Positions 4,657-20,109 of a stretch of DNA of 24,393 bases are shown in pieces. Both the position numbers and the translations under genes were made by a program. The notes under the pieces are model-generated. The model was given only the letters and a program-made list of their open reading frames with translations. It was not told the DNA's origin and did no database searches. Source of the DNA: Ruminococcus sp. UBA3800 (GTDB lineage: Bacteria > Bacillota > Clostridia > Oscillospirales > Ruminococcaceae); the NCBI GenBank assembly GCA_002368715.1, contig DFEO01000127.1, positions 1-24,393 on the forward strand. Reading direction: 5' to 3'. Position 1 is the stretch's first letter, and each line of letters begins with the position of its first letter.

Positions 4657-7600
4657 ATGAGATTCAATAAAGAAAGCTTGTCGGGCTTTCTTAACGCTCA
4701 AAGGAGGAAACGGCTGCGGTCCGTTGCGGCAGGCCTTATGGCTGCCACCGTTGCTTTCAGCGTTTACGGCAGCTTGATAAGACCGGCTATAAGTCTGACG
4801 CCGGGCTCGGGCAGCGTGATGCTGCTGGGTGCCGGTAATGAAGTCAGCGGCGACCCGCTGGAGATAGGTCAGGCTTCAAGCTCCAGCTCCACAGGTGTTT
4901 ACACGGTGGAGGCCAAGGTCACGAAGGATGATAAGGGTTCACCAAAGAAGTATTATGCCGATCTGACTGCGAAGTTCAATCTGACAGCCGAAACTGTACA
5001 GAGCCTGAACCAGCACGCCAATGCTATTAAGTTCAATGTGGGACCTGTTGATTCCGAGGGCTTTGAGTTTGACTCGTCGATGAAATCCACAGGCGATGTT
5101 TTTACCAGCGGTGACGATAAGGCGAAGATAGGAACCTATGTGTTCGACCCTTCGACAGGAGATGTTACCATAACCTTTGATTTCACCGTTCCTTATTTTG
5201 ACGGAAGACAGGGCGAGGCTATCGGCGGAGGATTCAACTTCCAGGCATGGACATGGAACCAGGACAACAGCCAGGAGGACAAGTCCTTCAGTATAGCAGG
5301 AAATGATGTTGTAGTTCCGATATACAGATATACGCATACTGCGGATCTTTCGGTAAAGAAGAGCTATAACAACGACTTCTTCTATCAGACAGAGGGAGCC
5401 ACGATGGGTACGGGCGATGATGCCAAGAGAGGTCTGGGTTCGTCATTCAGGATAGATGTCAGCTCCAGAAACGGAGTTGACGGCGCAAAGGTGACCTTTA
5501 CCGATACGCTGACCTGTGACGATGTCCATTTTGACCTTGTGCCCGGATCGACATGGAAGCTGTATGATGCTAACGGAAATGTTGTAAGCGACCCTGTGCT
5601 GACTATCGATTCAATAACGACAATAGGCAGCGATCAGGTGCTTACGGCTTCGCTGACGGCAGCTGACCAGACGCTTCTGAGCAGGGGATTTGATTATTAC
5701 TGGAACTGTCCTGTTACAGTAAACGAGGAGCACCTCAACGAGAACGGTGAGGTCCACGTTGTAAGAGGATCCTTTGAATCGATCGAAGGAAGCAATGTTG
5801 TTTCTGCAAAGGCGAAGAACGTTCCGGAAACTGTCGATGATGCAAGGATCCAGGTAGGTCTTGTGGCCGACATAACCAAGGGCAACGGTACCTATGATCC
5901 CGAGACCAATACGGTCGAATGGAGGATATCTGTCCACAAGGAAAACGGCTGGTGGCAAAACGGTACCATCAATATCGACGACTTTATGGGCGGCGACGGC
6001 TCGAAGGAAAACCCGGGCGATAAGGCTCCCGAGCTTTACGGAACACCGGTGATGACCTTTATCGACAGCGATGACAACGAGCATCAGATCGTTTATGATC
6101 CGAGCAACCCGAACCAGTCTGTACAGGGCGTTCACCCTGTTGAGTATTCTGACGGCAGATTTACCATAACGATGGATCGTCCGACATCAGGTGACTGGAC
6201 AAATTACAATGAGACTCCTGTAAAAGAGTTCGTTATATACTACAAAACAAAGGTCAGCAGCGAGGATTACGGCAAGACGGAATACAACTGGGTAGGTCTT
6301 GTTGATCCCGAGGATCCTGACGGCTATGTCAGGATAGACCCCGACAAGCACGTAACGGTAAGCAAGCCCGATGTTTCAAAGGATCACGCTCTTGTGGATG
6401 ACGGTATACAGTGGACCATAACCGTTGACAACAGAGCAGGGCAGGATCTTGTGGGGCTTGATATAACGGATACCCTTTCACAGGGAGGTACGGCGCAGAC
6501 ACCGCCGGATCTCAGTACCGCTGTGCTCAGCGTCGGCGGCACGGTGGTCCCGATAACGGATGTTTTTGATGTGAACGGAAATGTCCTTACCTTCAAGGAA
6601 GGCGTTTCGGCAAATGCTTCGTCCTATGAGATAACCTATGTTCAGCAGCTCGATGTTGCACAGCATAAGAACGAATCGTTCCAAAATGATGTCAAGATCG
6701 AGAACGACGAGGAGATACTTGATGAGGACGTTGAGGATGCTCACATCCCGAAGGAGCACGAGGTCGATAAGAGCGGCTATCTTGGCGCAGACGGCCTTAT
6801 GCACTATAAGGTAAGCTTTATCAACCAGTATGGTGATGACCTTTACGGCGAGCAGATCACGGACGTGCTGACTATCACAAAGAAGGACGGCACTCCTGTG
6901 AACGCAGCGGATTTCGACTTTACTGTCGTAAGCCCGGCAACAGGTATCACCAGTCAGTCGGCGTCTGATGGCAACACCATCACCACGACCTTTACTGTTG
7001 ATGCGAGCACCACACAGAAGAGGCTGGATATCGAGTATGTTGTAAAGCCGGCGAACAGCACATTTATAACAGACTACGGCTATTACCTTCACAATGAAGC
7101 TGAGTGGGGCGATGAAAGGATCCCGAACGATGAGACCGTGGATCAGTTCGTTTCGCTGAGTGAAAAGACCGCAAGCTATGATAAGAATACCGACCTTATC
7201 ACCTGGATGGTCACTGTCTACAACCCTTACGGGGTAGACCTTTCGACACTCGGCTATCCGCTGGAAGACACGATGTTTGACAGCGGCATCAGAAGCTTCA
7301 ATGTCACCGATGCAAACGGAACTGATGTGACACAGGCAGGAGACCTTGAAGCGGTAAGAGCAGGAGCATATGAATTCCACGAGGGAATGAACTCCGACTC
7401 TTATACCTTTACCTATAAGACAAAGCTTCCCGATCCCGTGGGACTGACAGAGCAGAAGATATCGGTGACAAATGATGTTACCTACGGTCAGGACGAGAAG
7501 ACCAAGACCATAGATGTCTATCCCTGGGAAATGAATAAGAATTCCTCAAAGTCAGCTTCGGCAACGGATCCGGACTCTGAGGGCAGCTTTGAGATACTCT

Positions 7601-10600
7601 GGACGCTCAAGCTTGGGACATATAACGGCGGCTTCCTTTATGCTATGGAGCAGGGCTACGAGATAGGCGACAATATGTCGGTCAGAGCTGTCGGAACAGG
7701 CGGCCAGACAAAGCCTCTCTCTTCCGAGGATGCGGCACTGATAAAGAACTATATCCCTGCGGATGAGTTCGATATCAACACGCTGTTCACTCTTAAAACA
7801 AAGAGCTATACTACATGGGATACGGTCAGTCAGGGCCTTGAGCCCGGCGATCTGTTTGAGCTTGTCAAGGTGTCTGAGGACGCCGACGGGAACGTTACGG
7901 CGTTCAAGGTGCTCTTCAAGCAGCAGACAGATGAGAACTCCGATGAGTATAAGGCTCTGAGGGATGCAAACGAACTGGAGCTTAGCTACGTTTCGAGGGC
8001 TGAGGGCGCAGATGTGCTTGCAGACCTGAATAAAGGAGAGAAGCTTGTCTATGACAACACGCTGTCGTTCCCGGGAACACCCGACAAGACAGCGACTCAC
8101 GAGATCGAGAAAAAGCCTGCGATCTCAAAATACATCCAGAACTATGATTACGCTTCTTATCAAGAGGTATATACGGTTTATGACAAGTCCTTCGGACTTT
8201 CAAAGATAGCACACGACAACGAGCTGGACTGCTACTATGTTAAGTATATGCTCGGTGTCAATCAGTCCAGGAGCTATGGCGCAGACCAGGATATAACCGT
8301 TACGGACACCCTGCCCGAGGGTATGGACTTCGTTTCAGGTGAATATGCCCTGGGAGCCGGCGGCGAGCGGACTCCGATGTCGGCGTCAGGGGTTTCCTGG
8401 GCTCAGAACGGCAGAGAGCTCACCTTTACGGTGCCGGGAAATATCCACGGCGGCGGATATGCCGAGCTTTACTATACCGTGAAGATCGAGGACGAGGTAA
8501 TGGACGCTTTGCTTGCAGATACAGAGCAGTCTGCCAGCGGCGCCGCAGTATTCGAGAATACGGCACAGGTCGGAGATGACTTTGACACCATAACGACAAC
8601 GTTCAACGACGATGTGCCGAAGATAAGCAAAACAGCTTCGGAATACCGTGACAACGGAAACCTTGTTGAAAATGCGGTATCCTATACGCTGGATATCAAC
8701 CCGAATGCCAGAAAGCTGCTGCCTGACGACCAGAGCAGACTGACGGTGACAGACACGATAAACCAGTCTGATGCCGACCAGAATTATGCAAGATGTCCTA
8801 TACTGTTCTCGCAGCTGACGGCAAACAGCATCCATATCTATAAGGTAGTCGGCGATCAGCAGATCGAGATGGACATAGGTGAGTTCGGCTTTACGGAACC
8901 GGAAAGAAAGACGCTTCCTGTCTATGGCGGAAACCTCGGTGAGGGCGATGTTTATACCTTCAAGCTGACGGTCCCCGATGAAACGCATATAAGGATCGTT
9001 TACAACTACCAGTTCGAGTTCAATGAGAAGGCAAAGAACGACGACAGCTACAATGCCGATCAGATGGTGCTCAAGAACAACGCTGCCATCACAGGTCAGA
9101 ATGCTACCGCAAACAAAGACTTTAACCAGAACTTCAACAAGTATCAGAGCTCGGGTGCTTATGCTTCGACCATCAACAACATCTCGCTGAGAAAGTTCAG
9201 CTCGGACAACTGGCTCGAATCTCTCGGCGGAGCACAGTTCGTGCTTATGAGATGCGATAATGAAGGCAAATGGCAGACGCTGACGGGCGTGGAAACCGTG
9301 GCAGAGATCTATGAGTGGCTCGAGAACGATCACTCACATGAGACAAACTATAATGCCACTACATTTGGTGCGTGGAGCGACGGTGTTATCTCCGCTTCCG
9401 ACGGCGCAAGGGTGCTTATCACAGAGGCTCAGACAGGACAGATAGAGCTGCCTTGTCTCCAGAAATATGTGACCAGACCGGTAGACGTTGGCGGAGTTTC
9501 CGAGACCAGGAACTACTATACTATCGACGAGCTGCCGAACGGCCAGCAGAGATATGTTTACGTCCTTCGTGAGATAAAGGCTCCGACAGGGTATACGTTC
9601 GATGAAGGCACAAGAGATCATTATTTCTTCGAGCAGCCCAAGGATGAGACCGCAAGCGGCTGTAAGCCGGCACTTGCTATTGCACAGACCGGTGTCGATG
9701 CGAACAAGGTCGAAGCGGTGCGTTCGGGAACAAAGATAGAGCTTGAGAACGATGCGAAGGAACTGAGAGTAAAGAAGTTCTGGAACACCTCCGATCAGAC
9801 GGCAGTGCCCGATGAAGTGGAGTTCAAGCTTTACAGAACGCTCACACAGCCCGCACCGGCCGCAAACACACATAAGGTAACGCTGACGATAGAGCAGAAG
9901 TATGATTCTTCACACAGGGAGACCTATACATTTATAGTCAGGGACGGAGATACATTCTCTGCATCAACTCCTTGCGGTGTAAGCTGCTATGGGGCATACA
10001 ATAATAATATCGGATATGCAAACTCGCAGGGGATCATAACATTCACAAGTGATCAGCCTGTTACGAAGGACACAGAGTTCTTCGCAGGACTGAATCTCAG
10101 TGATTTTACAACGCTGAAGGTAAGGTCTGACAATTCTGTCGTGAACACAAGCTCGGGCAAGCCCACAGACAGCGAGTTCGTAAAGGACATTACGCTGACA
10201 AAGGGTCAGGACTGGCAGGCGGTTATCGACGGCATAGACTTCTCCGAGGGTGATTACTACTATTACCTTGAGGAAACAGGCGTAGACGGCTTTGATGCCA
10301 ACTACTACATAAACGGCATTGAACTGGGAACGTTTGAAGTCATCAACAACAGCTACGAAAGCGGTTCGATAACAGTGAACAAGAGCTGGCTCGGAGATGA
10401 GGCTGATGTGGATAAGCTGACGTTCGACATCGTAGGCTACACCGAGAAGGCACCTCAGGAACCAAGCGAGTATAGTCAGAGCGCAGGAGCTTCTGATTAT
10501 GTGACGATAAACTTCCAGGGCGCCGACAATCAGGATAATCATTATGTTTATGACCTGAAAAAGTACTTTGTGCTCACTCCGGGCGAAACATATACGCTTA

Positions 10601-11301
10601 ATATCGGAGGACGATCCTATACAAGCGGTCATGTCAAGAAGTTTGATGTCAACTCTGCGGCAAGCAGCGATTTCTGGCAGAACCAGACAGGGCCGGGATG
10701 CAGCTTCAATATCACAGCAGGGCAGGAGAATACGAATGTTGACATAAATGTATCCTACTCATACGGCATAAGCACTAATTATGGCTGGTGGAACGCACCG
10801 ACATCCGATGATTATCTGTTCAGTGTGACAAGCGGCGGACAGGATGTCACGGTATTTGACAGCAAGTCTGACCTTGACAGCTATATAGCTTCTCAGCAGA
10901 CCGAACCGTCAGACACCTACTCAGAGTACACGCCGACACTTCCGCAGGGGACTCCCGTGATCTCAAAGACCCTGACGGTAACAAAGGACGGCACGACAGG
11001 CAAATGGAGCGGCACCTATGATGGGCTCCCGCTCACAAGCGGCGGTCAGCCGATCTACTACTATGTGGTCGAGCGTGGAAGCTCAGCCTTCACACCTATC
11101 GACTACTCTAAGAACGGCTTCGTTCTTGAAGAGAACAAGACAAGCTCGGTAACGGTGACGAACCAGTCACAGGAAGTTGATGCCTATGAGCTGCCCGAAG
11201 CAGGCGGCGAGGGAACAACACTTTACATCATCACAGGCTCGGGGCTGATGCTTGGAGCAATGGTGCTGTTCACAGTTAAAAAGCGTAAGGCGCAGAGCTG
11301 A
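4657..11301 (+). CDS. Giant LPXTG-type pilus-associated adhesin (LPEAG sorting signal)
   Basis: A 2214-residue cell-surface protein, probably the pilus tip or an accessory adhesin. AGGGGG precedes the ATG. Residues 1-48 hold a long basic n-region (QRRKRLR) and a hydrophobic core, an extended Sec signal. Residues ~230-1500 contain a series of Ig-like adhesin modules that often begin with a K-rich strand and contain a phrase of the type xWTITVDN/AGQDLVGLDITDTL; visible starts are near 229, 397, 570, 700, 833, 959, 1152 and 1321. A prealbumin-like module follows at 1507-1650 (ISLRKFSS to LREIKAPTGY). Two Cna_B-type modules at ~1699-1895 and ~1903-2175 are each interrupted by a long insertion. 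The sorting signal LPEAG at 2179-2183 precedes a hydrophobic span and KKRK. Lys/Glu/Asn placements suggest intramolecular isopeptide bonds. The ligand is unknown. It lies directly before the backbone pilin gene. Confidence 0.93.
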   Translation: MRFNKESLSGFLNAQRRKRLRSVAAGLMAATVAFSVYGSLIRPAISLTPGSGSVMLLGAGNEVSGDPLEIGQASSSSSTGVYTVEAKVTKDDKGSPKKYYADLTAKFNLTAETVQSLNQHANAIKFNVGPVDSEGFEFDSSMKSTGDVFTSGDDKAKIGTYVFDPSTGDVTITFDFTVPYFDGRQGEAIGGGFNFQAWTWNQDNSQEDKSFSIAGNDVVVPIYRYTHTADLSVKKSYNNDFFYQTEGATMGTGDDAKRGLGSSFRIDVSSRNGVDGAKVTFTDTLTCDDVHFDLVPGSTWKLYDANGNVVSDPVLTIDSITTIGSDQVLTASLTAADQTLLSRGFDYYWNCPVTVNEEHLNENGEVHVVRGSFESIEGSNVVSAKAKNVPETVDDARIQVGLVADITKGNGTYDPETNTVEWRISVHKENGWWQNGTINIDDFMGGDGSKENPGDKAPELYGTPVMTFIDSDDNEHQIVYDPSNPNQSVQGVHPVEYSDGRFTITMDRPTSGDWTNYNETPVKEFVIYYKTKVSSEDYGKTEYNWVGLVDPEDPDGYVRIDPDKHVTVSKPDVSKDHALVDDGIQWTITVDNRAGQDLVGLDITDTLSQGGTAQTPPDLSTAVLSVGGTVVPITDVFDVNGNVLTFKEGVSANASSYEITYVQQLDVAQHKNESFQNDVKIENDEEILDEDVEDAHIPKEHEVDKSGYLGADGLMHYKVSFINQYGDDLYGEQITDVLTITKKDGTPVNAADFDFTVVSPATGITSQSASDGNTITTTFTVDASTTQKRLDIEYVVKPANSTFITDYGYYLHNEAEWGDERIPNDETVDQFVSLSEKTASYDKNTDLITWMVTVYNPYGVDLSTLGYPLEDTMFDSGIRSFNVTDANGTDVTQAGDLEAVRAGAYEFHEGMNSDSYTFTYKTKLPDPVGLTEQKISVTNDVTYGQDEKTKTIDVYPWEMNKNSSKSASATDPDSEGSFEILWTLKLGTYNGGFLYAMEQGYEIGDNMSVRAVGTGGQTKPLSSEDAALIKNYIPADEFDINTLFTLKTKSYTTWDTVSQGLEPGDLFELVKVSEDADGNVTAFKVLFKQQTDENSDEYKALRDANELELSYVSRAEGADVLADLNKGEKLVYDNTLSFPGTPDKTATHEIEKKPAISKYIQNYDYASYQEVYTVYDKSFGLSKIAHDNELDCYYVKYMLGVNQSRSYGADQDITVTDTLPEGMDFVSGEYALGAGGERTPMSASGVSWAQNGRELTFTVPGNIHGGGYAELYYTVKIEDEVMDALLADTEQSASGAAVFENTAQVGDDFDTITTTFNDDVPKISKTASEYRDNGNLVENAVSYTLDINPNARKLLPDDQSRLTVTDTINQSDADQNYARCPILFSQLTANSIHIYKVVGDQQIEMDIGEFGFTEPERKTLPVYGGNLGEGDVYTFKLTVPDETHIRIVYNYQFEFNEKAKNDDSYNADQMVLKNNAAITGQNATANKDFNQNFNKYQSSGAYASTINNISLRKFSSDNWLESLGGAQFVLMRCDNEGKWQTLTGVETVAEIYEWLENDHSHETNYNATTFGAWSDGVISASDGARVLITEAQTGQIELPCLQKYVTRPVDVGGVSETRNYYTIDELPNGQQRYVYVLREIKAPTGYTFDEGTRDHYFFEQPKDETASGCKPALAIAQTGVDANKVEAVRSGTKIELENDAKELRVKKFWNTSDQTAVPDEVEFKLYRTLTQPAPAANTHKVTLTIEQKYDSSHRETYTFIVRDGDTFSASTPCGVSCYGAYNNNIGYANSQGIITFTSDQPVTKDTEFFAGLNLSDFTTLKVRSDNSVVNTSSGKPTDSEFVKDITLTKGQDWQAVIDGIDFSEGDYYYYLEETGVDGFDANYYINGIELGTFEVINNSYESGSITVNKSWLGDEADVDKLTFDIVGYTEKAPQEPSEYSQSAGASDYVTINFQGADNQDNHYVYDLKKYFVLTPGETYTLNIGGRSYTSGHVKKFDVNSAASSDFWQNQTGPGCSFNITAGQENTNVDINVSYSYGISTNYGWWNAPTSDDYLFSVTSGGQDVTVFDSKSDLDSYIASQQTEPSDTYSEYTPTLPQGTPVISKTLTVTKDGTTGKWSGTYDGLPLTSGGQPIYYYVVERGSSAFTPIDYSKNGFVLEENKTSSVTVTNQSQEVDAYELPEAGGEGTTLYIITGSGLMLGAMVLFTVKKRKAQS

Positions 11302-11350
11302 TAAGCTTGGATATAGTATATTATCTCAAATCAAAAAAGGAGTGTTTTTT

Positions 11351-12946
11351 ATGAAATTAACAAAGAGGATAGCAGCTACCGTGGCAGCAATGACAATGGC
11401 AGTGAGCGTTGTGGGAATGACAGCTTTCGCATCAGAGGCACCTGCAACGAGGGATATCTCGGTAAGCCAGAATGCAAACAACTCATATAAGGTCTTCCAG
11501 GTATTCCAGGGCGATTTTGAGGGCAATAAGCTTCTGACAAAGGACCTTGAATTCGGTACCGATGTCAACATAGAAAAGCTTAATCAGGCGCTCGGACTTC
11601 CCACCGATAATCAGGATGCAGGCAAGGCTCTGAAGGCTCTTTCTGAACTGGATGCACAAGGTATCGCTGCTAAGCTCAATGAAGACGGCGTACTGGAAGG
11701 TTCAGGTACTGCTGTGGATGCCGGCGACAGTGTGGCTTTCTCGGTAGGTTACTACTACATCCGTGAGAGCGACGATGACGACAACACCGCTGATATCCTG
11801 ATAAACCTGAAGGATGATACAGAGATAACACCTAAGCTCGGTGCTCCCAAGGTAGAGAAGAAGGTCAAGGAGGACGACAGGGAAGTTTCGCTCGGCGATG
11901 TTATGGACGAAGATCTTTACGAGCCTAAATACAATGATGCAGCCGACTACTGCATAGGCGAGGCAGTTCCTTTCGAGCTCGTGGGTTCGCTCCCGGAGAC
12001 ATTTGACAATTTCAAAGACGGCTATTACTATGAGTTCATAGACCGTCTTGCTGCCGGCTTTGTGGCTCCCGAGACTTCTGCTTTCCAGGTTCTTTTGAAC
12101 GGCAGGACAGACATCACAAATCAGGCTGCCATTACAAAAACAGTAAATGCTGACGGCTCTGCAAACTTCAGCATCAAGTTCAACAATATCAAGGCTGTTC
12201 AGGGCGTGGACAAGGACAGCAAGATCGTTGTAAAATACAGCGCAGTTCTTGATACTGATGCAGTCATCGGTGAGGCAGGAAACACAAACGGCGTTAAGCT
12301 CAAGTATTCCACAGACTATGACTATGACGGCGACGGAATAGAAGACGGCGATGATCACGACGATACCGAAGAGACCACCGAGGACGGAACAGTTGTATTC
12401 ACCTACACTGTTGATACCACAAAGAAGGATGCCACAACTCAGGAAACTCTTGCAGATGCAAAGTTCAAGCTCCTTAATGCCGATAAGAGCAAGGCTGCTA
12501 TCATCACAGACGGAAAGTTTGCAGGCTGGGCAGCTAACGCTGAAGGCGGAACCGAGATAACCACAGCAGCCGGCGGTAAGTTTACTGTGATCGGTCTTGA
12601 CAGCGGCACATATTTTATCACTGAGACAGAGGCTCCTGAGGGCTATACTCCTCTTGACGGCGATATCAAGGTCGTTATCAGAGCTGATATGAACGTTGCC
12701 GGCGACTGGGAATATGAAGTTGACGACGGTTCGGACGCATTTGTTGAGCTTAACACAGATAGCGGCTTTACCGCTGATACTACGACAGGTGTTGTTGCAG
12801 GCGATATCCTCAATGCCAAGGACGGCGCAGAGCTTCCCGAGACAGGCGGCATCGGAACCACACTGTTCTATGTTGGCGGCGGTCTTACAGCAGCAGCAGC
12901 AGGCGTAGTCCTCGTTGCAAGAAAGAGAGCAAAGAGAGAGCAGTGA
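11351..12946 (+). CDS. Major (backbone) pilin subunit, LPETG
   Basis: A 531-residue pilus shaft subunit. The start at 11351 has AAGGAG just upstream. Residues 1-29 are a Sec signal ending in TAFASEA. A candidate pilin-motif lysine is K167 in LGAPKVEKKV, the position where the next subunit is joined in FimA/SpaA-type pilins. A central domain spans about 195-320. A Cna_B-type domain at ~345-480 contains the E-box YFITETEAPEGY (E425), expected to promote an isopeptide bond. An Asp-rich segment DYDYDGDGIEDGDD starts at D322 and may bind calcium. The sorting signal LPETG is at 495-499, followed by a hydrophobic span and RKRAKRE. The class C sortase gene downstream is the expected polymerase. Family assignment is strong; the linking lysine is inference. 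Confidence 0.94.
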   Translation: MKLTKRIAATVAAMTMAVSVVGMTAFASEAPATRDISVSQNANNSYKVFQVFQGDFEGNKLLTKDLEFGTDVNIEKLNQALGLPTDNQDAGKALKALSELDAQGIAAKLNEDGVLEGSGTAVDAGDSVAFSVGYYYIRESDDDDNTADILINLKDDTEITPKLGAPKVEKKVKEDDREVSLGDVMDEDLYEPKYNDAADYCIGEAVPFELVGSLPETFDNFKDGYYYEFIDRLAAGFVAPETSAFQVLLNGRTDITNQAAITKTVNADGSANFSIKFNNIKAVQGVDKDSKIVVKYSAVLDTDAVIGEAGNTNGVKLKYSTDYDYDGDGIEDGDDHDDTEETTEDGTVVFTYTVDTTKKDATTQETLADAKFKLLNADKSKAAIITDGKFAGWAANAEGGTEITTAAGGKFTVIGLDSGTYFITETEAPEGYTPLDGDIKVVIRADMNVAGDWEYEVDDGSDAFVELNTDSGFTADTTTGVVAGDILNAKDGAELPETGGIGTTLFYVGGGLTAAAAGVVLVARKRAKREQ

Positions 12947-12988
12947 TGCTTTCAGGCACCAAACACAAATAATTAAAATCACCTTAGT

Positions 12989-13010
12989 CCGACGGCCATA
13001 GCGCCGTCGG
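12989..13010 (+). other. Intercistronic hairpin between pilin and sortase genes
   Basis: CCGACGGC (12989-12996) and GCCGTCGG (13003-13010) form a perfect GC-rich 8-bp stem with a six-base loop. No T-run follows; the next bases lead into AGGGAGG, the sortase ribosome binding site. It could stabilise the 3' end of a processed pilin mRNA or partly attenuate transcription, giving more pilin than sortase. Confidence 0.55.
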
Positions 13011-13027
13011 GCATTAGGGAGGGTCTC

Positions 13028-13912
13028 ATGAGCAGCAAAAACAACAGAGCGACAACTATCGTCCTTGTGATAGTGTTTCTGGTGGGACTCTCCGTAATGC
13101 TTTACCCTGCTGTCAGCGACTGGTGGAACTCAAGACATCAGAGCCGTGTGGTGGCTGCATATCAGAAAGCCGCAAACAGGCTCGATGACAGCAAGGAAAA
13201 GGAGCTGCTCGAAAGAGCAAGAGAGTATAATAAAAAGCTTTCCGAGCTTGCGGCACCGCTTTTGGATTATGAAGCTGTGCCGGATTATGACAAGATACTC
13301 GACATTACGGGCACAGGCGTTATGGGTATAATAAATATCCCTCAGATAGGTGTGGAGCTGCCGGTGTATCATGGCACCAGCGAGGGTGTCCTGAATGTGG
13401 CGGTGGGTCACCTCAGGGGGTCGTCGCTGCCCGTTGGCGGCAAGGGCACTCATGCCGTTATCTCTGCACACAGAGGTCTGCCGTCTGCAAAGCTTTTCAC
13501 AGACCTGGATAAGCTGGTGGAGGGCGATGAGTTTACCATAACGGTGCTGAAAGAGGTCTACACCTATGAGGTGGAAGAGATAAGCATAGTTTTGCCGGAC
13601 GAAACAGAAAAGCTGGCAATAGACCCTGACCGTGACCTTGTGACGCTTATGACCTGTACGCCGTATGGCATAAACACGCACAGGCTTTTGGTGACCGCTC
13701 ACAGGTCGGGAACAGGATATATCGACGACAACGGACCTGTTAAGGTGCCGTCCGATGCTGTTATGCTCGATGCTATGTCGGTGGTGCCGTTTATAGCGGC
13801 TCTGCCTGTGGCAGGGCTCGTGGGCTGGTGGCTGTTCGGCGGCAGAAGAAAAAAGAGGTTTTCGCATAAGGATCCGCTCTCGGTCTTGGAGAGCGACAAA
13901 GATAAAAGCTAA
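13028..13912 (+). CDS. Class C (pilin-polymerising) sortase
   Basis: A 294-residue membrane transpeptidase that cleaves LPXTG-type signals and joins subunits through a lysine. AGGGAGGG precedes the ATG. A membrane segment lies at about residues 9-28. The catalytic domain shows the class C signature: IPQIGVELPVYHGTSE, then GHLRGSSLPVGG, H148 in SAHRGLPSAKLFTDLDKL, C210 in TLMTCTPYGINTHR and R219. A second hydrophobic segment near residues 251-269 is followed by basic residues, the C-terminal anchor typical of class C. The N-terminal lid region lacks the usual DPF/DPW signature and reads LLDYEAVPDYDKILD instead. It follows the backbone pilin gene, its presumed substrate. Confidence 0.95.
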   Translation: MSSKNNRATTIVLVIVFLVGLSVMLYPAVSDWWNSRHQSRVVAAYQKAANRLDDSKEKELLERAREYNKKLSELAAPLLDYEAVPDYDKILDITGTGVMGIINIPQIGVELPVYHGTSEGVLNVAVGHLRGSSLPVGGKGTHAVISAHRGLPSAKLFTDLDKLVEGDEFTITVLKEVYTYEVEEISIVLPDETEKLAIDPDRDLVTLMTCTPYGINTHRLLVTAHRSGTGYIDDNGPVKVPSDAVMLDAMSVVPFIAALPVAGLVGWWLFGGRRKKRFSHKDPLSVLESDKDKS

Positions 13913-13942
13913 AGAGCCTCAGGGCTTTTGGGAGGAATGAGT

Positions 13943-14701
13943 ATGAGAACTGTATCAAGGAGGGGACTGGCAGCAGCAGCCTGCATTATTTTGGCTATGC
14001 TCTTTATGCTGCCGCTCGGAGCCTTTGCGGCTGACGGTGCGATAGTTATAAACAGCAGGTACGGCGATGAGCCTGTCCCGATGAAATGGAGTGTATACAG
14101 CATAGGCAGCAGGTCGGAGGACGGAGGCTTTGTGCTGAATGATACCTTTGCGCAAAGCGGAGCTGACTTCGGTGACCTGAGCGCCGAGGCTGTGGCAGAT
14201 GCCGCAGACAGGATATCTCAGTTTATCTTTGACAGCCAGCTCGAGCCTGACTTTCAGGTGACAGCTGATGATGAGGGCATCGCAAGAGCCGAGGTGGGTC
14301 AGTCAGGGCTTTACTTTATCACATCTGATGCGCAGACCATAGGTCAGAAGCAGTATACGTCGGTGCCGTCCATCGTCGAGGTCAAGGACGGCGACGCTGA
14401 GGTGATGGCAAAGCTGGAGGCCGAGGATATCCCCGAGGACAGCAGCTCGTCACAGAGCAGCTCGGACAGTGTGAGCGAGAGCACACCCGATACATCTTCT
14501 AAGATCGACAGCAGCACCACGGATACAAGCTCCGGGAAGGATACCGGCGACGGCTTTGCTGACGGCGGCGGAAAGAAGGATCAGTCTATTCCACAGACAG
14601 GACAGCTCTGGTGGCCTGTGCCTGTTATGGCGCTTGTCGGACTGATACTCGTTGCTATGGGTATAAGAGTTTATACTAAGAAGGATAACAGTAATGACTA
14701 A
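13943..14701 (+). CDS. Minor pilin / basal subunit with IPQTG sorting signal
   Basis: A 252-residue secreted, wall-anchored protein. The start at 13943 is preferred because GGGAGG ends seven bases upstream; the in-frame ATG at 13937 is too close to it. Residues 1-28 form a signal peptide (RRGL, hydrophobic core, GAFAADG). Residues ~30-155 form a single beta-rich domain (INSRYGDEPVPMKWSVYSIG) followed by GLYFITSDAQTIG, resembling small pilins. Residues ~160-212 are a Ser/Thr/Asp-rich stalk suited to crossing the cell wall. The sorting motif IPQTG is at 216-220, followed by QLWWPVPV, a hydrophobic span and KK. The stalk and the non-LPXTG motif fit a base subunit that ends polymerisation. Its stop codon overlaps the start of the second sortase by 8 bases, suggesting that the two work together. 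Confidence 0.9.
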   Translation: MRTVSRRGLAAAACIILAMLFMLPLGAFAADGAIVINSRYGDEPVPMKWSVYSIGSRSEDGGFVLNDTFAQSGADFGDLSAEAVADAADRISQFIFDSQLEPDFQVTADDEGIARAEVGQSGLYFITSDAQTIGQKQYTSVPSIVEVKDGDAEVMAKLEAEDIPEDSSSSQSSSDSVSESTPDTSSKIDSSTTDTSSGKDTGDGFADGGGKKDQSIPQTGQLWWPVPVMALVGLILVAMGIRVYTKKDNSND

Positions 14702-15335
14702 TAAAAAATGCGGTCGCGTACTGATCGCAGCAGGGGCATTGGTGCTTTGTGCAGCGGTGTCCCTCGTTGCTTATAACAGGTATACTGACAAAAAAGCAGG
14801 AGAAGCGGCCGAAAAAACGGCTGCGGTCATAAGAGAGCATATAGAGAGCAGCCGGAAGCAGCTGACCTATGATACGGAAAGTGAGAGCGGCAGCGAAGCA
14901 CAGCAGGACATCACCTATGAGGATGAGGAGCCAGAGGCTCTTGACATTGACGGCGAGCTTTATATAGGGCTTCTCGAGATACCGAAGCTCGGTCTGGAGC
15001 TGCCCGTGACCAAGGGCTGGGACTATAATAAAATGGCTCACGCCTTATGTCAGTACAGCGGAGATGTAAGACATAACGACCTTATCATATGCGGTCACAA
15101 CTATACGTCTTACCTTATCGACGTCGATCAGCTGGCGGTGGGCGACGAGATGATCTTTACCGAGATAAACGGCAGAAAGCACAGCTACACCGTGGGCTGG
15201 TTCGAGCTGCTGGGCGGACTTGAAGGAGAGAAGCTGGACGCAAAGACCGAGGACTGGGATCTGACCGTGTTCACCTGCACCTGGAGCGGTTACAGCAGGG
15301 TGATCGTGAGGTGTATAGGCAGTGATGAGGTGTGA
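14694..15335 (+). CDS. Second sortase (no lid, no C-terminal anchor)
   Basis: A 213-residue sortase with an N-terminal membrane anchor at about residues 8-27 and an acidic linker (~55-80). The catalytic core begins at LYIGLLEIPKLGLELPV; H135 is in ICGHNYTSYLIDVDQL, C195 in LTVFTCTWSGYSRVIVRC, and R202 seven residues later. It has no class C lid and no C-terminal transmembrane segment, so it resembles class D/B-type anchoring enzymes more than a polymerase; I cannot fix the class. Translation is coupled to the IPQTG subunit (overlap ATGACTAA), so IPQTG processing or final wall attachment is the most likely job. It is the last gene of the pilus operon, and no clear terminator follows before the next promoter. 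Confidence 0.9.
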   Translation: MTNKKCGRVLIAAGALVLCAAVSLVAYNRYTDKKAGEAAEKTAAVIREHIESSRKQLTYDTESESGSEAQQDITYEDEEPEALDIDGELYIGLLEIPKLGLELPVTKGWDYNKMAHALCQYSGDVRHNDLIICGHNYTSYLIDVDQLAVGDEMIFTEINGRKHSYTVGWFELLGGLEGEKLDAKTEDWDLTVFTCTWSGYSRVIVRCIGSDEV

Positions 15336-15357: not shown

Positions 15358-15386
15358 TTTACTTTTGAAATAAATCGTGCTATAAT
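15358..15386 (+). promoter_or_regulatory. Promoter of the STAS / MATE-ATPase operon
   Basis: TTTACT (15358-15363), a 17-base spacer and a perfect TATAAT (15381-15386). The start of transcription would be near 15393, about 38 bases before the STAS ATG. Confidence 0.78.
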
Positions 15387-15409: not shown

Positions 15410-15430
15410 TGAAAAGAAAGGATGATATCT

Positions 15431-15733
15431 ATGCAGATAGCTACTCTTCACACAGCTAACAAGTTCACTGTGACGATCACAGGCAGGATAGATGCAAAAA
15501 CAGCCCCTGAGATCGAGAAGGCTGTGCTTTCTATGCCGGCAGAGGTCAAGGCGCTGGATTTTGACTTTAAAAATGTAATATATATATCATCGGCAGGGCT
15601 GAGGATGCTCATAACCGCCACACAGGAAATGGATAGAAGGGGCGGCTCGATGAAGATCGCAAATGCCAATGACGAGATACTTGAGATCTTTGAGGTGACA
15701 GGCTTTACAGAATTCCTGCCTATCGAATACTGA
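15431..15733 (+). CDS. STAS-domain anti-sigma factor antagonist-like protein
   Basis: A 100-residue single-domain protein of the SpoIIAA/RsbV type. In known systems such proteins switch partners by being phosphorylated by a cognate RsbW/SpoIIAB-like kinase. AAAGGA ends about 8 bases before the chosen ATG at 15431; an in-frame ATG at 15422 overlaps that site. It shows the early strand FTVTITGRIDAKTAPEIEKA and the switch loop DFKNVIYISSAGLRML, with S53/S54 at the usual phosphoacceptor position. The C-terminus has the usual IFEVTGFTEFLPI. The MATE transporter gene 17 bases downstream carries an RsbW/SpoIIAB-like ATPase domain, so the likely partner is encoded in cis. No sigma factor gene is visible in the window. 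Confidence 0.92.
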   Translation: MQIATLHTANKFTVTITGRIDAKTAPEIEKAVLSMPAEVKALDFDFKNVIYISSAGLRMLITATQEMDRRGGSMKIANANDEILEIFEVTGFTEFLPIEY

Positions 15734-15750: not shown

Positions 15751-17505
15751 ATGGTTGATTCAAAGATCATAACAAGGCTGTTTTTTCGTCTGCTGCCGGT
15801 TCAGATAATCCTGGTGGCGATAGGAAGCATAAACTCGATCATCGACGGAGCGATAGCAAGCAGATTTATAGGGCCCATAGCGATCAGCGTTATAGGCCTT
15901 TATCTTCCGCTGCTCAAATTTACCGACACCGTAAATGCCGTTATGCTGGGCGGCTCGCAGATATTGTGCGGCCAGTCCATAGGCAAGGGCGAGCTTGAAA
16001 AGACCGGAAGGATATTCTCGCTCGATCTGGTGGTGACAGCGGCGTTTTCGGCAGTGATAGCGCTGCCCTGCCTGTTTGCACCTTCGCTTGTGGGCGGCAT
16101 ACTCGGTGCCGACTCAAAGACTGCGGCTGATATGGCGCAGTATCTGAGAGGTATGTCCTTTGGCATAACGGGCACGATGATAGCGGCTCAGCTTTCGGTG
16201 TTTTTGCAGCTGGAGCAGCAGGAAAAGCGCACCTATGCAGGCATCGCCGTTATGGCGGTGTCAAATGTGGTGATGAACCTTTTGTTCGTAAAGGTGTTCT
16301 CGCTCGGGATGTTCGGCCTTGGTCTTTCCACAACGATAAGCAGCTGGCTTTTCTGCATCGTTCAGGCAAGCTATTATTTCAGCGGAAAGTCAGCCGTGCG
16401 TTTTAGTATAAAGGGGCTTGATCATTCGTTTCTTGCTCCTATGATAAAGATAGGCATACCCGGTGCGGTCGTACAGCTGTGCCTGACGATAAGGGGGCTT
16501 GCCCTTAACCAGATGATACTCCACTTTGCAGGCAGAAATGCTCTGGCGGCATTTGCGTCGGTGGGCACCTTCGGCTGTGTATATTTTGCGGTAACAGCAG
16601 GTGTGGCCTCGGCCACAAGGCTGCTGGCAAGCGTTTATTACGGCGAGGAGGACAGGTCGGGTCTTCTTATGATAATGAAGACTGCGCTGACAAAGGGTGT
16701 CGGCCTTGTTGCAGGTACTGCGGCAGTGTGTATAATTCTGGCACCGCTTTTCACAGGCTTTTTTTACAGCGACCCCGATACCGAGGTGTACAGGCTTGCG
16801 CTCCAGTTTTTCCGGATCTTCCCGATCTCTATGCCGCTGAGCGCCTTCTGTGTCATTTTCCTCAACTACTACCAGTGCTCGGACAGGATGAAGATAGTAA
16901 ATATCATTTCCGTTATCGACGGAGTCTTGGGCGTTTGCCTGAGCTCGCTGATACTTGCCCCGATAATGGGGGCTATGGGCATATGGATAGCACAGCCTCT
17001 GGCAGGTTATTATACTACGGCAGCCGTTATCCTGTACAGCGTGTGGATAAACGGCAGGCTGCCGAAAAGCATAGAGGACCTGCTGGTGATAAGGCCGGGC
17101 TTCGGTGTTCCCGATGAGGACAGGCTCGACATCTCTGTCAGGAACAAGAAAGATGTGCTGGATACCTCTCAGAGGGTGTATGACTTCTGCACCGAGCATG
17201 GTGTTGTTTACAAGCACGCATTTTACAGCGGTCTGTGTATCGAGGAAATGGCAGGCAACATAGTTGACCACGGCTTTGAAAAGGCCGGAAAAGACAGCAT
17301 AGACATTAGAGTGGTATATAAAGACGGCGGGATCCTTATACGCTTCAAGGACAGCTGCAAGCCCTTTGATCCGAAGGAGTTCGCAAAGCTTTTCAAGCCA
17401 GACGACATAACACACAATATAGGCATCAGGATGGTCAGCCGGATAAGCAGGGAAATGGATTATAACTATGTTCTGGGGCTTAATGTGCTGACAATAAAGG
17501 TGTGA
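15751..17505 (+). CDS. MATE-family transporter fused to a C-terminal RsbW/SpoIIAB-like ATPase domain
   Basis: At 584 residues it is about 130 longer than an ordinary MATE exporter. Residues 1-445 contain about twelve hydrophobic segments in a MATE-like pattern, starting FFRLLPVQIILVAIGSINSI, and would export an unknown substrate by cation antiport. After a short linker, residues ~460-584 form a GHKL ATPase domain of the anti-sigma kinase type: an N-box with E498, E499 and N503 in CIEEMAGNIVDHGF, a G1-like D534 in RFKDSCKPFDP, and a G2-like HNIGIRMV (G558). The usual GxG of the G1 box is replaced by SCK. No stop codon or frameshift separates the two parts. The gene sits between the STAS gene and a nucleoside-binding protein gene. 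This fits a transporter whose activity is coupled to phosphorylation of, or binding to, the STAS protein, which is inference. AAAGAGGA precedes the ATG. Confidence 0.9.
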   Translation: MVDSKIITRLFFRLLPVQIILVAIGSINSIIDGAIASRFIGPIAISVIGLYLPLLKFTDTVNAVMLGGSQILCGQSIGKGELEKTGRIFSLDLVVTAAFSAVIALPCLFAPSLVGGILGADSKTAADMAQYLRGMSFGITGTMIAAQLSVFLQLEQQEKRTYAGIAVMAVSNVVMNLLFVKVFSLGMFGLGLSTTISSWLFCIVQASYYFSGKSAVRFSIKGLDHSFLAPMIKIGIPGAVVQLCLTIRGLALNQMILHFAGRNALAAFASVGTFGCVYFAVTAGVASATRLLASVYYGEEDRSGLLMIMKTALTKGVGLVAGTAAVCIILAPLFTGFFYSDPDTEVYRLALQFFRIFPISMPLSAFCVIFLNYYQCSDRMKIVNIISVIDGVLGVCLSSLILAPIMGAMGIWIAQPLAGYYTTAAVILYSVWINGRLPKSIEDLLVIRPGFGVPDEDRLDISVRNKKDVLDTSQRVYDFCTEHGVVYKHAFYSGLCIEEMAGNIVDHGFEKAGKDSIDIRVVYKDGGILIRFKDSCKPFDPKEFAKLFKPDDITHNIGIRMVSRISREMDYNYVLGLNVLTIKV

Positions 17506-17539: not shown

Positions 17540-19444
17540 ATGAGAGAAGATTATAAAGCCGCAAAAAAGCTTGCGGAGGAGGCTGTTAAAGAGGCCAGGA
17601 AAAAGGGCATAGACCCTTATCTGCCGATACTTGACGAGATACCCGAAGCCAGGTCTTCTTCCGGCGAGATAAGGCTGGGTCTTCTGGAGCTGCCTGTTAA
17701 AAGGATAGTCGGAAACAAGGAGGCAGGCCGTAACTCCGCTTTTGCCAATAATTTTATGCCTTTGCTGGAGGACGGGAGCGAGTTTGCGACCAAGTGGTCC
17801 AATCTCTACGATTCGTTTGTGAACGAAGGCATAAGGGATGCCATCAAGGTCTATGAGTATATGAACAATTACTATGTTCAGGAGGGCAACAAGCGTGTGT
17901 CGGTCTCACGATTCGGTGAGATGGAGTTTATCCTTGCGGACGTAAGACGCATACTCCCAAAGCCCACGGACACAAAGGAGTATAAGGTATACAGCGAGTA
18001 TCTGCGCTTTTATGCAGCAACAAAGAATATATATATCGTTTTCTCCGAGGTGGGCAGCTATGAAAAGCTGGCCGACCTGCTGGGACGTGACCTCGATAAA
18101 AAATGGCCCGACTCCGTATGCTCGGAGTTGAAGCTTGCCTTTTTCAGCTTCTGCAAGAAGTGCAGGAGCGTTATGAAGATAGATGACGACAGAGCGCTTT
18201 CGGAGGCGTTTTTGATGTATATCTCTATCTTCCCGATGAAAACACTGTTCAGAGACACCGAGGAGCAGATAATCAAGAATATCAAGCTGGCAAGCTCGGA
18301 GCTTTCGGCTGTCACCTCGGACGATATAGCCTTTCTGGAAAGCGCCCCCGAGGCGGCAGAGCAGAAGACCTCCCGCTTCAGACAGTTTATACAGGGAAAG
18401 AAAAGATATACCGCTCAGACACCGCTCAAGGTGGCGTTAATCTATGATGCCGACCCCGAGCAGTCACGCTGGACCGACAGCCACGAGGCAGGCAGGCTTT
18501 ATGTGGAGCAGATGACCGATGAGAACGTTGTTACCACCAGCTACTGCACAGGTGAAGGCGAGCTGACCGCAGAGCAGACTATCGAGCGGGCGATAGCCGA
18601 CAGGAACGAGATCATTTTTGCGGTGTCTGCTTCGATGATACCCGACGCTCTCAAAGCAGCGGTAAAGAACCCCTCGGCAAAGATACTCTGCTGCTCGGTG
18701 GGACAGAAGCATTCATCTCTCAGATATTATCACGGAAAACTTTATGAAGCTGCTTTCCTTATGGGGATCCTTGCTGCCGACACCCAGCTTCGGGACGGAG
18801 CAGGCACCGACAGAAAGATAGGATACCTTACAAGAGATCTCGACAACATGAGCAAGAGAGTCTTAAACGCCTTTGCGGTGGGCGTTTCATTGCTTGACCC
18901 CGAGTGCAGGGTGGTGCTCGGCTGCGGCAGCAGTATAGATGACCTGCGTGATGAATGGAAACAAAAGGGGATAAGGTATTATGCCGACTTTGATTATGAG
19001 GGTCAGGCAGACCTTATGAGCCGCCCGGGACTTTTCCGTATGGATGAGGAGAAGGACAAGTATATAGGCGCTCCTTATTTCAGCTGGGGCAAGTATTATG
19101 TTCAGATAGTCCAATCTGTTCTTTCGGGCGCCTGGGAGCTGGGCGACGAGATGAAAACACATAACGCTGCCAGCTATTGGTTCGGCCTTTCTACCGGTGT
19201 TGTGGATATAAGAGTGAGCAGGATCAGCTATCAGACAAATAAGATGCTGGCGTTTTTCAAGACGGCGATAGTCAATGGCGGCTATGATCCCTTCACGGGA
19301 GAGCTGCGCACAGCTGACGGCATCGTTTATCAGGCCGAGACCGACAAGAAGCCCGGTGTGTCTCTGGAGCAGCAGACGCTCAAAACAGGCGATATCGCCT
19401 TTATGGACTGGTTTAACGAAAACATCGACTCTGATCTTATTTAG
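17540..19444 (+). CDS. Cytosolic ParB-like / BMP (basic membrane protein) nucleoside-binding-type fusion
   Basis: A 634-residue protein with a strong AAGGAGG before the ATG. It starts MREDYKAAKKLAEEAV with no signal peptide, lipobox or membrane segment, so it should be cytosolic. Residues ~50-140 resemble a ParB/sulfiredoxin-fold domain: LPVKRIVGNKEAGRNSAFAN is followed by FVNEGIRDAIKVYE and YYVQEGNKRVSVSRFG, where ParB proteins have GHRR. Residues ~140-290 are helical and unassigned. Residues ~295-570 match the BMP/Med (PnrA-type) periplasmic-binding fold, with PLKVALIYD, KLYEAAFLMGILAAD and KIGYLTRDL, then NAFAVGVSL and IGAPYFSWGKYYVQIV. Family members outside the cell bind purine nucleosides for ABC import. 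Here a free cytosolic binding domain suggests a sensor. I recall similar fusions in Clostridia labelled only as BMP-family proteins. No ABC permease is nearby. Confidence 0.85.
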   Translation: MREDYKAAKKLAEEAVKEARKKGIDPYLPILDEIPEARSSSGEIRLGLLELPVKRIVGNKEAGRNSAFANNFMPLLEDGSEFATKWSNLYDSFVNEGIRDAIKVYEYMNNYYVQEGNKRVSVSRFGEMEFILADVRRILPKPTDTKEYKVYSEYLRFYAATKNIYIVFSEVGSYEKLADLLGRDLDKKWPDSVCSELKLAFFSFCKKCRSVMKIDDDRALSEAFLMYISIFPMKTLFRDTEEQIIKNIKLASSELSAVTSDDIAFLESAPEAAEQKTSRFRQFIQGKKRYTAQTPLKVALIYDADPEQSRWTDSHEAGRLYVEQMTDENVVTTSYCTGEGELTAEQTIERAIADRNEIIFAVSASMIPDALKAAVKNPSAKILCCSVGQKHSSLRYYHGKLYEAAFLMGILAADTQLRDGAGTDRKIGYLTRDLDNMSKRVLNAFAVGVSLLDPECRVVLGCGSSIDDLRDEWKQKGIRYYADFDYEGQADLMSRPGLFRMDEEKDKYIGAPYFSWGKYYVQIVQSVLSGAWELGDEMKTHNAASYWFGLSTGVVDIRVSRISYQTNKMLAFFKTAIVNGGYDPFTGELRTADGIVYQAETDKKPGVSLEQQTLKTGDIAFMDWFNENIDSDLI

Positions 19445-19452
19445 GAGGAGTT

Positions 19453-20109
19453 ATGAGGATCCTTGTTATAGCTGACGAAGAATCTAAATATCTGTGGGAC
19501 TATTATACCCCCGATAAGCTTGACGGGATCGACCTTATTATTTCCTGCGGCGATCTGAGAGCCGAGTATCTTGAATTTCTGGTAACGATGGGCAGGGTGC
19601 CCGTGCTCTATGTTCCCGGCAACCACGACAGCCGCTATGAAAAGCGTCCGCCCGAGGGCTGCGAGCTTCTGGATGGGAAGGTGTTTCGGTATAAGGGTCT
19701 GCGTATCCTCGGCTTCGGCGGATCTATGCGCTACGGTGTAGGGCCTTATATGTATACCGAGAAGGAGATGCTGAAGCGCCTTAAAAAGTCCAGACGTTCG
19801 ATAGTTAAAAACGGCGGATTTGACCTGCTGGTCACGCATTCGCCCGCAAGAGGCTACGGCGACCTTGAGGATATACCCCACAAGGGCTTTGAGTGTTTCA
19901 ACAGGCTGCTGGAAAAGTGCCGTCCGAAATATATGCTCCACGGCCATGTCCATGCCACCTACGGCAGCCGCTTCAAGCGTGTGCTGCGGCACCCCAGCGG
20001 CACCACGATAATCAACTGCTATGACAAATACATCCTGGATGTTGACCTCGGGGAAGAGAAGGGTCCGACCAGAAAGGAGCTTTTCAAACAGCTCTATCCG
20101 AAGATATGA
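19453..20109 (+). CDS. Metallophosphoesterase
   Basis: A 218-residue calcineurin-like phosphoesterase, likely cytosolic. AGGAGG overlaps the end of the previous gene (stop TAG at 19442-19444), so the two are translated together. The dimetal motifs are in order: D8 in VIADEES, D34 in SCGDLRAEY, N57/H58/D59 in VPGNHDSRY, H129 in LVTHSPARG, and H165/H167 in LHGHVHATYG. In motif I, E10 stands where most family members have histidine (DxH), so the metal site may be altered; I recall relatives with the same DEES form. The substrate cannot be read from sequence; cyclic nucleotides and phosphodiesters are common in this fold. As the last gene of the STAS/MATE operon it could remove a nucleotide signal, which is inference. 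Confidence 0.92.
   Translation: MRILVIADEESKYLWDYYTPDKLDGIDLIISCGDLRAEYLEFLVTMGRVPVLYVPGNHDSRYEKRPPEGCELLDGKVFRYKGLRILGFGGSMRYGVGPYMYTEKEMLKRLKKSRRSIVKNGGFDLLVTHSPARGYGDLEDIPHKGFECFNRLLEKCRPKYMLHGHVHATYGSRFKRVLRHPSGTTIINCYDKYILDVDLGEEKGPTRKELFKQLYPKI

Follow-up and report, generated by a model that had tools for sequence, protein, structure and literature searches.

Partner switching is known mainly for the freeing of sigma factors, and a few other outputs are known, a cyclase being one example. In Bacillus, SpoIIAB and RsbW are soluble kinases, each holding a sigma factor. Partner switches with other outputs were described for SiaABCD in Pseudomonas and SypA/SypE in Vibrio fischeri (PMC9239204, PMC8457831, PMC10120452); in neither of them does the kinase belong to a transporter, and SiaC acts on a cyclase. 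Transporter and histidine kinase are found in one chain in CbrA and other SLC5/STAC proteins (PMC13022988, PMC7096432, PMC5715377, PMC9100948), and the mycobacterial MurJ is a flippase with an intracellular pseudokinase tail that is phosphorylated by PknB and then binds FhaA (PMC6180346). None of SiaABCD, SypA/SypE, CbrA or MurJ joins a MATE protein to an RsbW-type kinase, and neither does SpoIIAB/RsbW.

In this paper we looked at a fusion of this kind, encoded in a 24,393-nucleotide stretch of DNA from Ruminococcus sp. UBA3800 (the whole of which is called the window). The fusion shares with SpoIIAB/RsbW the predicted fold and the ATP-site residues of its tail, and a STAS protein is encoded directly 5' of it, but its kinase is attached as a tail to a transporter with 12 helices and has a cysteine in the G1 box. 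Pfam scans of ten window proteins gave no sigma-factor family, and hence no cognate sigma gene as for SpoIIAB/RsbW; such a gene may lie elsewhere in the genome. As in CbrA, transporter and kinase are in one chain, yet the transporter is a MATE and not an SLC5 protein, and an RsbW-type domain with a STAS protein takes the place of a two-component kinase with a response regulator. As in the mycobacterial MurJ, an exporter- or flippase-type protein carries a kinase-like and presumably cytosolic tail; unlike the MurJ pseudokinase, this tail has ATP-site residues that look intact, and its fold is GHKL.

The fusion gene (15751..17505, + strand) is one open frame from an ATG at 15751 to a stop at 17503-17505 and encodes 584 amino acids. 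Profile searches recognized both halves above the Pfam cut-offs, MatE with 82 bits (cut-off 24.9) and HATPase_c_2 (PF13581, residues 481-582) with 32.4 bits (cut-off 27.4). The last membrane helix extends to residue 434, and from about residue 455 the chain adopts the ATPase fold, close to the boundary at 445/446 in the initial annotation, which had described one uninterrupted frame that joins about 445 residues of MATE protein to the tail. One full-length database protein is 90% identical, and a genomic copy that is 91% identical lies on a contig of 173,568 bases, which indicates that the join between MATE and ATPase is real. An assembly artefact as the source of the fusion is ruled out by this full-length relative and by many other fusions.

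The MATE-RsbW fusion is not rare. A database search with the fusion found 187 proteins at E ≤0.001 (7995 candidates scored), and among the best 120 of these 187, both Pfam domains are precomputed for 115 and MatE alone for five. Database annotations of the relatives include plain 'MATE' or 'ATP-binding protein', and the source name of one relative (P0043) joins a multidrug efflux pump and an anti-sigma regulatory factor. The initial annotation knew of no described system of this kind, and this agrees with our literature search, which found no description of a MATE-RsbW fusion but had most subscription papers beyond its reach and is weak evidence of absence; the name of P0043 is an exception at the level of the databases. 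In a scan of species genomes, 390 stretches were found to encode a relative. The best 80 come from Ruminococcus, Lachnospiraceae, isolates of Butyrivibrio and Pseudobutyrivibrio, Eubacterium, Solobacterium, Mogibacterium and records labelled as spirochaetes. The spirochaete-labelled relatives (L080, L090, L125, L127, and L133) are 41-54% identical to the fusion, and their presence suggests lateral transfer or a binning error. In the window's own genus, at least 16 of 28 other genomes have a match below 1e-20 that extends at least to residue 541. A class-wide sample of 391 genomes contains 30, the own genome included, that match the tail profile at 1e-10, and 28 of these 30 have at least one matching frame of more than 500 amino acids, a count made from tail matches and frame length. 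The own genome also encodes a second fusion, which runs into a contig end (C36, L069).

For comparison of the family, the 129 fusion ORFs in all loci were reduced to those of the window and of L051-L150, with one copy per identical last 300 residues, which left 102. All 11 fusions of 874-905 amino acids among these 102 (L105, L114, L118, L122, L123, L134, L137, L138, L141, L142, and L150) continue past MatE and HATPase_c_2 into a third domain at the C-terminus, HD-CE (PF24391), and in L106 HD-CE is a separate 293-amino acid gene directly 3' of the fusion. HD domains are often phosphohydrolases.

The MATE part (residues 1-434; 15751..17052, + strand) shows MatE domains in Pfam, a MATE fold and 12 helices, and MurJ is also found among its fold matches. 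Alignment to PfMATE (3vvn) places D41, N180, and T202 of that protein on D32, N172, and T194 of the window protein, and D184 on N176, a position at which the consensus of 46 sequences has D. We take these four PfMATE residues to be the N-lobe cation site. D32 and N172 are invariant in the 46 sequences and T194 is nearly invariant; the two invariant cation-site residues favour a working transporter. The loops of the MATE part that are counted as inside contain 18 Lys and Arg residues and those counted as outside 7, a bias which suggests that the N- and C-terminus are both cytosolic, and thus the tail is predicted to be on the cytosolic side.

The tail (residues 451-584; 17101..17502, + strand) is an RsbW/SpoIIAB-type ATPase domain of the GHKL kind, as the initial annotation had proposed, and Pfam, profile comparison with solved structures, and predicted fold agree on this. 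By sequence profile its closest solved relatives are RsbW (6m36) and SpoIIAB. When the whole protein was used in a fold search, MATE, WzxE, and MurJ entries took up the result, which was uninformative on the tail. The tail was therefore folded separately; its closest folds are then SpoIIAB, UsfX, and RsbW, and the predicted fold is nearer to SpoIIAB/RsbW than to histidine kinases. A histidine kinase reading of the tail was rejected, since no HisKA phosphoacceptor domain was found among the four Pfam families matched up to E 0.1 and the fold scores of histidine kinases are below those of SpoIIAB.

In alignment with RsbW the tail contains the N-box glutamate and asparagine four residues apart, the G1 aspartate and the G2 glycine. 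All four residues of the initial annotation (E498, N503, D534, and G558) are present, but the glutamate that aligns with that of the RsbW N box is E499, to which E498 is adjacent. The equivalent of E499 is, we assume, the catalytic base in SpoIIAB. Both N-box residues, E499 and N503 (17245..17259, + strand), are found in 102/102 fusions, and so are D534 of the G1 box (D534-S535-C536; 17350..17358, + strand) and the G2 glycine G558 (17422..17424, + strand). The G1 box reads DSCKP and departs from DxGxG, with C replacing the usual first G; residue 536 is C in 88 of the 102 fusions, G in 12, and A in two. A dead ATPase is not favoured, with four ATP-site residues kept in 102/102 fusions although the G1 glycine is mostly gone, and this count is to be read with the selection of the fusions by a profile of the intact domain, which badly decayed tails would escape. 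The conservation of E499, N503, D534, and G558 together with the change at position 536 makes ATP binding and phosphotransfer by the tail likely but not certain, and the loss of the first G1 glycine could have altered the nucleotide affinity in most members.

A quick tree of HATPase domains (66 picked rows, with long branches) places 47 of the 48 fused rows in one half. The remaining fused row, L068, branches at the base of the other half, which contains the soluble and SpoIIE-linked domains, and L111 (labelled soluble) and L132 (labelled other) are located on a long branch inside the fused half. Because of these placements and the long branches, the tree supports no count of fusion events.

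Directly 5' of the fusion we found a gene that is absent from the initial annotation and that strengthens the RsbW-type reading. It encodes a SpoIIAA/RsbV-like STAS protein of 103 amino acids (15422..15733, + strand; PF01740 with E 2.3e-15, TIGR00377 over its cut-off), although the true start may be the ATG at 15431, which is better placed behind an AAGGA site. Alignments to 6m36_B and 1th8_B identify Ser57 (15590..15592, + strand) as what is presumably the position of the serine that is phosphorylated in SpoIIAA/RsbV. The sequence S56-S57-A58-G59-L60 is invariant in 22/22 aligned STAS proteins from fusion loci, the alignment covering 22 of the 28 STAS that were found; those left out are the STAS of L054, L064, and L112, the 531-amino acid L059 protein, and the second copies in L111 and L132.

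A candidate promoter upstream (15358..15386, + strand) matches the sigma-70 consensus at 10/12 positions (TTTACT-17-TATAAT, with TG before the second hexamer); it is a consensus match in a region with 17 such sites against 7.1 in shuffles. Only 17 bases separate the STAS stop from the fusion ATG, and 34 bases separate the fusion from the following gene, which encodes a 634-amino acid protein (17540..19444, + strand) with a PnrA/Bmp-like region at residues 297-468 (PF02608, E 3.8e-6) in which, by eye, a signal peptide is not obvious. This Bmp-like gene probably shares an operon with the fusion, and it is followed by a calcineurin-like metallophosphoesterase gene (19453..20109, + strand; PF00149, E 7.1e-10). 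No terminator-like sites were found on the + strand between the STAS gene, the fusion, the Bmp-like gene and the phosphoesterase, in a region where such sites are at chance level (5 against 5.1). Just 5' of the STAS gene lies a pilus-like locus (window 4657-15335) with a 2214-amino acid protein that has an LPXTG-type end (below cut-off), a 564-amino acid SpaA-type pilin and two sortases.

The order STAS, fusion, Bmp-like gene is conserved in 6/6 loci with at least 66% identity, namely the window and L071, L072, L073, L074, and L103, the latter five all labelled Ruminococcus, and in each of the six fewer than 100 bases separate the STAS gene from the fusion. The phosphoesterase gene comes next in five of these six loci (window, L071, L073, L074, and L103), and in L072 the contig ends first. 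The Bmp-like cluster is found directly 3' of the fusion in seven loci (window, L071-L074, L101, and L103); in L135 it is 5' of the fusion. Among all 102 fusions, 23 have a STAS gene within 2.5 kb, 22 of them on the same strand: all six of the closest group, seven of the 75 others whose tail scores above 150 bits with the family profile, and ten of the 21 more distant ones. For 79/102 no STAS was found within 2.5 kb, and for 34/102 the available sequence ends less than 2.5 kb from the fusion on one or both sides. The search for STAS used a profile built up from the STAS of the window, and that for SpoIIE a two-sequence profile, so that some may have been missed. Near the fusions, 458,208 bases contain 24 STAS genes, whereas 4 lie in the 513,314 bases at a greater distance; the value from a simple binomial is 3e-5, which is too optimistic as the loci are related and the neighbour counts are not independent. 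The own genome has 8 STAS in 1.84 Mb.

A SpoIIE gene is located within 2.5 kb of 9/102 fusions, and 9/9 of these also have a STAS gene, while none was found within this distance of any of the six closest fusions. Four SpoIIE matches exist in the own genome, none of them on the window's contig (C29). The gene order is SpoIIE-HATPase_c_2, STAS, fusion in L096 and STAS, SpoIIE, fusion in L089. In L053 the order is STAS, a 198-amino acid gene (6123-6719) with no Pfam or NCBIfam match, fusion, flavodoxin, a soluble HATPase_c_2 and a dCache-SpoIIE protein; genes of 717-718 amino acids in L052, L056, and L061 begin, by eye, like this dCache-SpoIIE. Of 20 genomes picked from those in which STAS was not found within 2.5 kb of the fusion, 20/20 had STAS and 20/20 had SpoIIE somewhere (STAS in 10/14 and SpoIIE in 5/14 control genomes), and a partner in trans is thus possible.

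Several loci show further arrangements. A gene of about 200 amino acids, alike by eye, is also found between STAS and fusion in L056, L058, and L061, and a gene of about 460 amino acids occupies this place in L067 (9978-11366) and L068 (7380-8747), with beginnings that are alike by eye and, for the L067 protein, a weak adenosylhomocysteinase likeness below cut-offs. In L059 (8810-10405), directly 5' of the MATE fusion, a 531-amino acid protein consists of STAS, an APH-type phosphotransferase region and HATPase_c_2. The own genome contains, on G000:C101 (L004, L046, and L049), a 644-amino acid frame with SpoIIE and HATPase_c_2 and a STAS match nearby.

The interpretation in the initial annotation, a MATE transporter tied to an RsbW/SpoIIAB-like ATPase, is therefore supported, and with it the protein may couple transport to signalling. 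A mechanism that fits these data, and to which we give about an even chance, is that partner switching controls the fusion, which would be an exporter or flippase of the MATE type. The cytosolic RsbW-like tail would bind ATP, bind the STAS protein encoded just 5' and phosphorylate it on Ser57, and a SpoIIE-type phosphatase, whose gene is elsewhere in the own genome and adjoins the fusion in some relatives, would remove the phosphate. The unphosphorylated STAS protein on the tail would then change the activity of the attached transporter, which would occupy the place of the sigma factor in the Bacillus systems. ATP binding, kinase activity and the cytosolic side are expected from known families, and we only infer that STAS binding alters transport. 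A linked STAS protein with its phospho-serine kept and SpoIIE phosphatase genes in the own genome, adjoining 9/102 of the fusions, are what partner switching calls for, and the dCache domain on the L053 SpoIIE phosphatase suggests that the signal enters there, with the MATE protein as output. Several observations speak against this mechanism: the 79/102 fusions for which STAS was not found within 2.5 kb, the six closest fusions for which the same holds for SpoIIE, the G1 glycine that most members have lost, and N176 in place of D184 of PfMATE. A more tentative proposal, for which we see somewhat less than an even chance, is that of a transporter family whose activity is set directly by STAS partner switching, the kinase being a covalent part of the transporter and one branch having a further HD-type domain in the chain (MatE + HATPase_c_2 + HD-CE). 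We know of no earlier partner switch with transport itself as its target.

The same components can be read in the opposite direction, with transport as the input: the MATE part would act as a sensor for a substrate or ion through its transport and in this way change the kinase activity of the tail, and the STAS protein would signal to another target. CbrA and the SLC5/STAC kinases are such transporter-kinase sensor chains, and both a STAS encoded as a free small protein and its presence with SpoIIE somewhere in all 20 tested genomes that have none near the fusion would suit it. However, the evident sensor of L053 is the dCache on the SpoIIE phosphatase and no response target was identified within the window; we consider this reading unlikely and give it about half the weight of the regulated transporter.

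Another hypothesis does without STAS: the tail would sense ATP/ADP and gate the transporter according to the energy charge, and the neighbouring STAS would serve other kinases. It would account for the 79/102 fusions with no STAS found within 2.5 kb, and the own genome has further HATPase_c_2 matches, including three within frames of 143-154 amino acids, to which the STAS protein could belong; yet the N-box glutamate, maybe needless for simple ATP binding, is kept in 102/102 fusions and STAS is adjacent in 6/6 of the closest loci, which makes the hypothesis improbable to us. Still less probable, with only a slight chance, is that the MATE part merely tethers a kinase that holds a sigma factor at the membrane. 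Here the closest solved relatives of the tail, which are anti-sigma factors, are set against mostly conserved MATE cation-site residues and ten scanned window proteins that include no sigma-factor family.

Regulation of the transporter is the reading that we prefer, and a kinase welded to an exporter allows a direct test of whether a partner switch can gate transport, for which the STAS protein of the window and the tail form a clear pair for purification. The tail of the exporter is a switch enzyme that is normally free in the cell, encoded beside a small protein of the kind that these switches usually target, and this suggests a joint control of export and signalling. If the proposed mechanism is true, this would be the first partner switch known to us that acts on transport, and it would be found in rumen and gut Clostridia and in records labelled as rumen spirochaetes. 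It suggests that gut and rumen bacteria have a layer of control on efflux or flippase activity which plain annotation hides.
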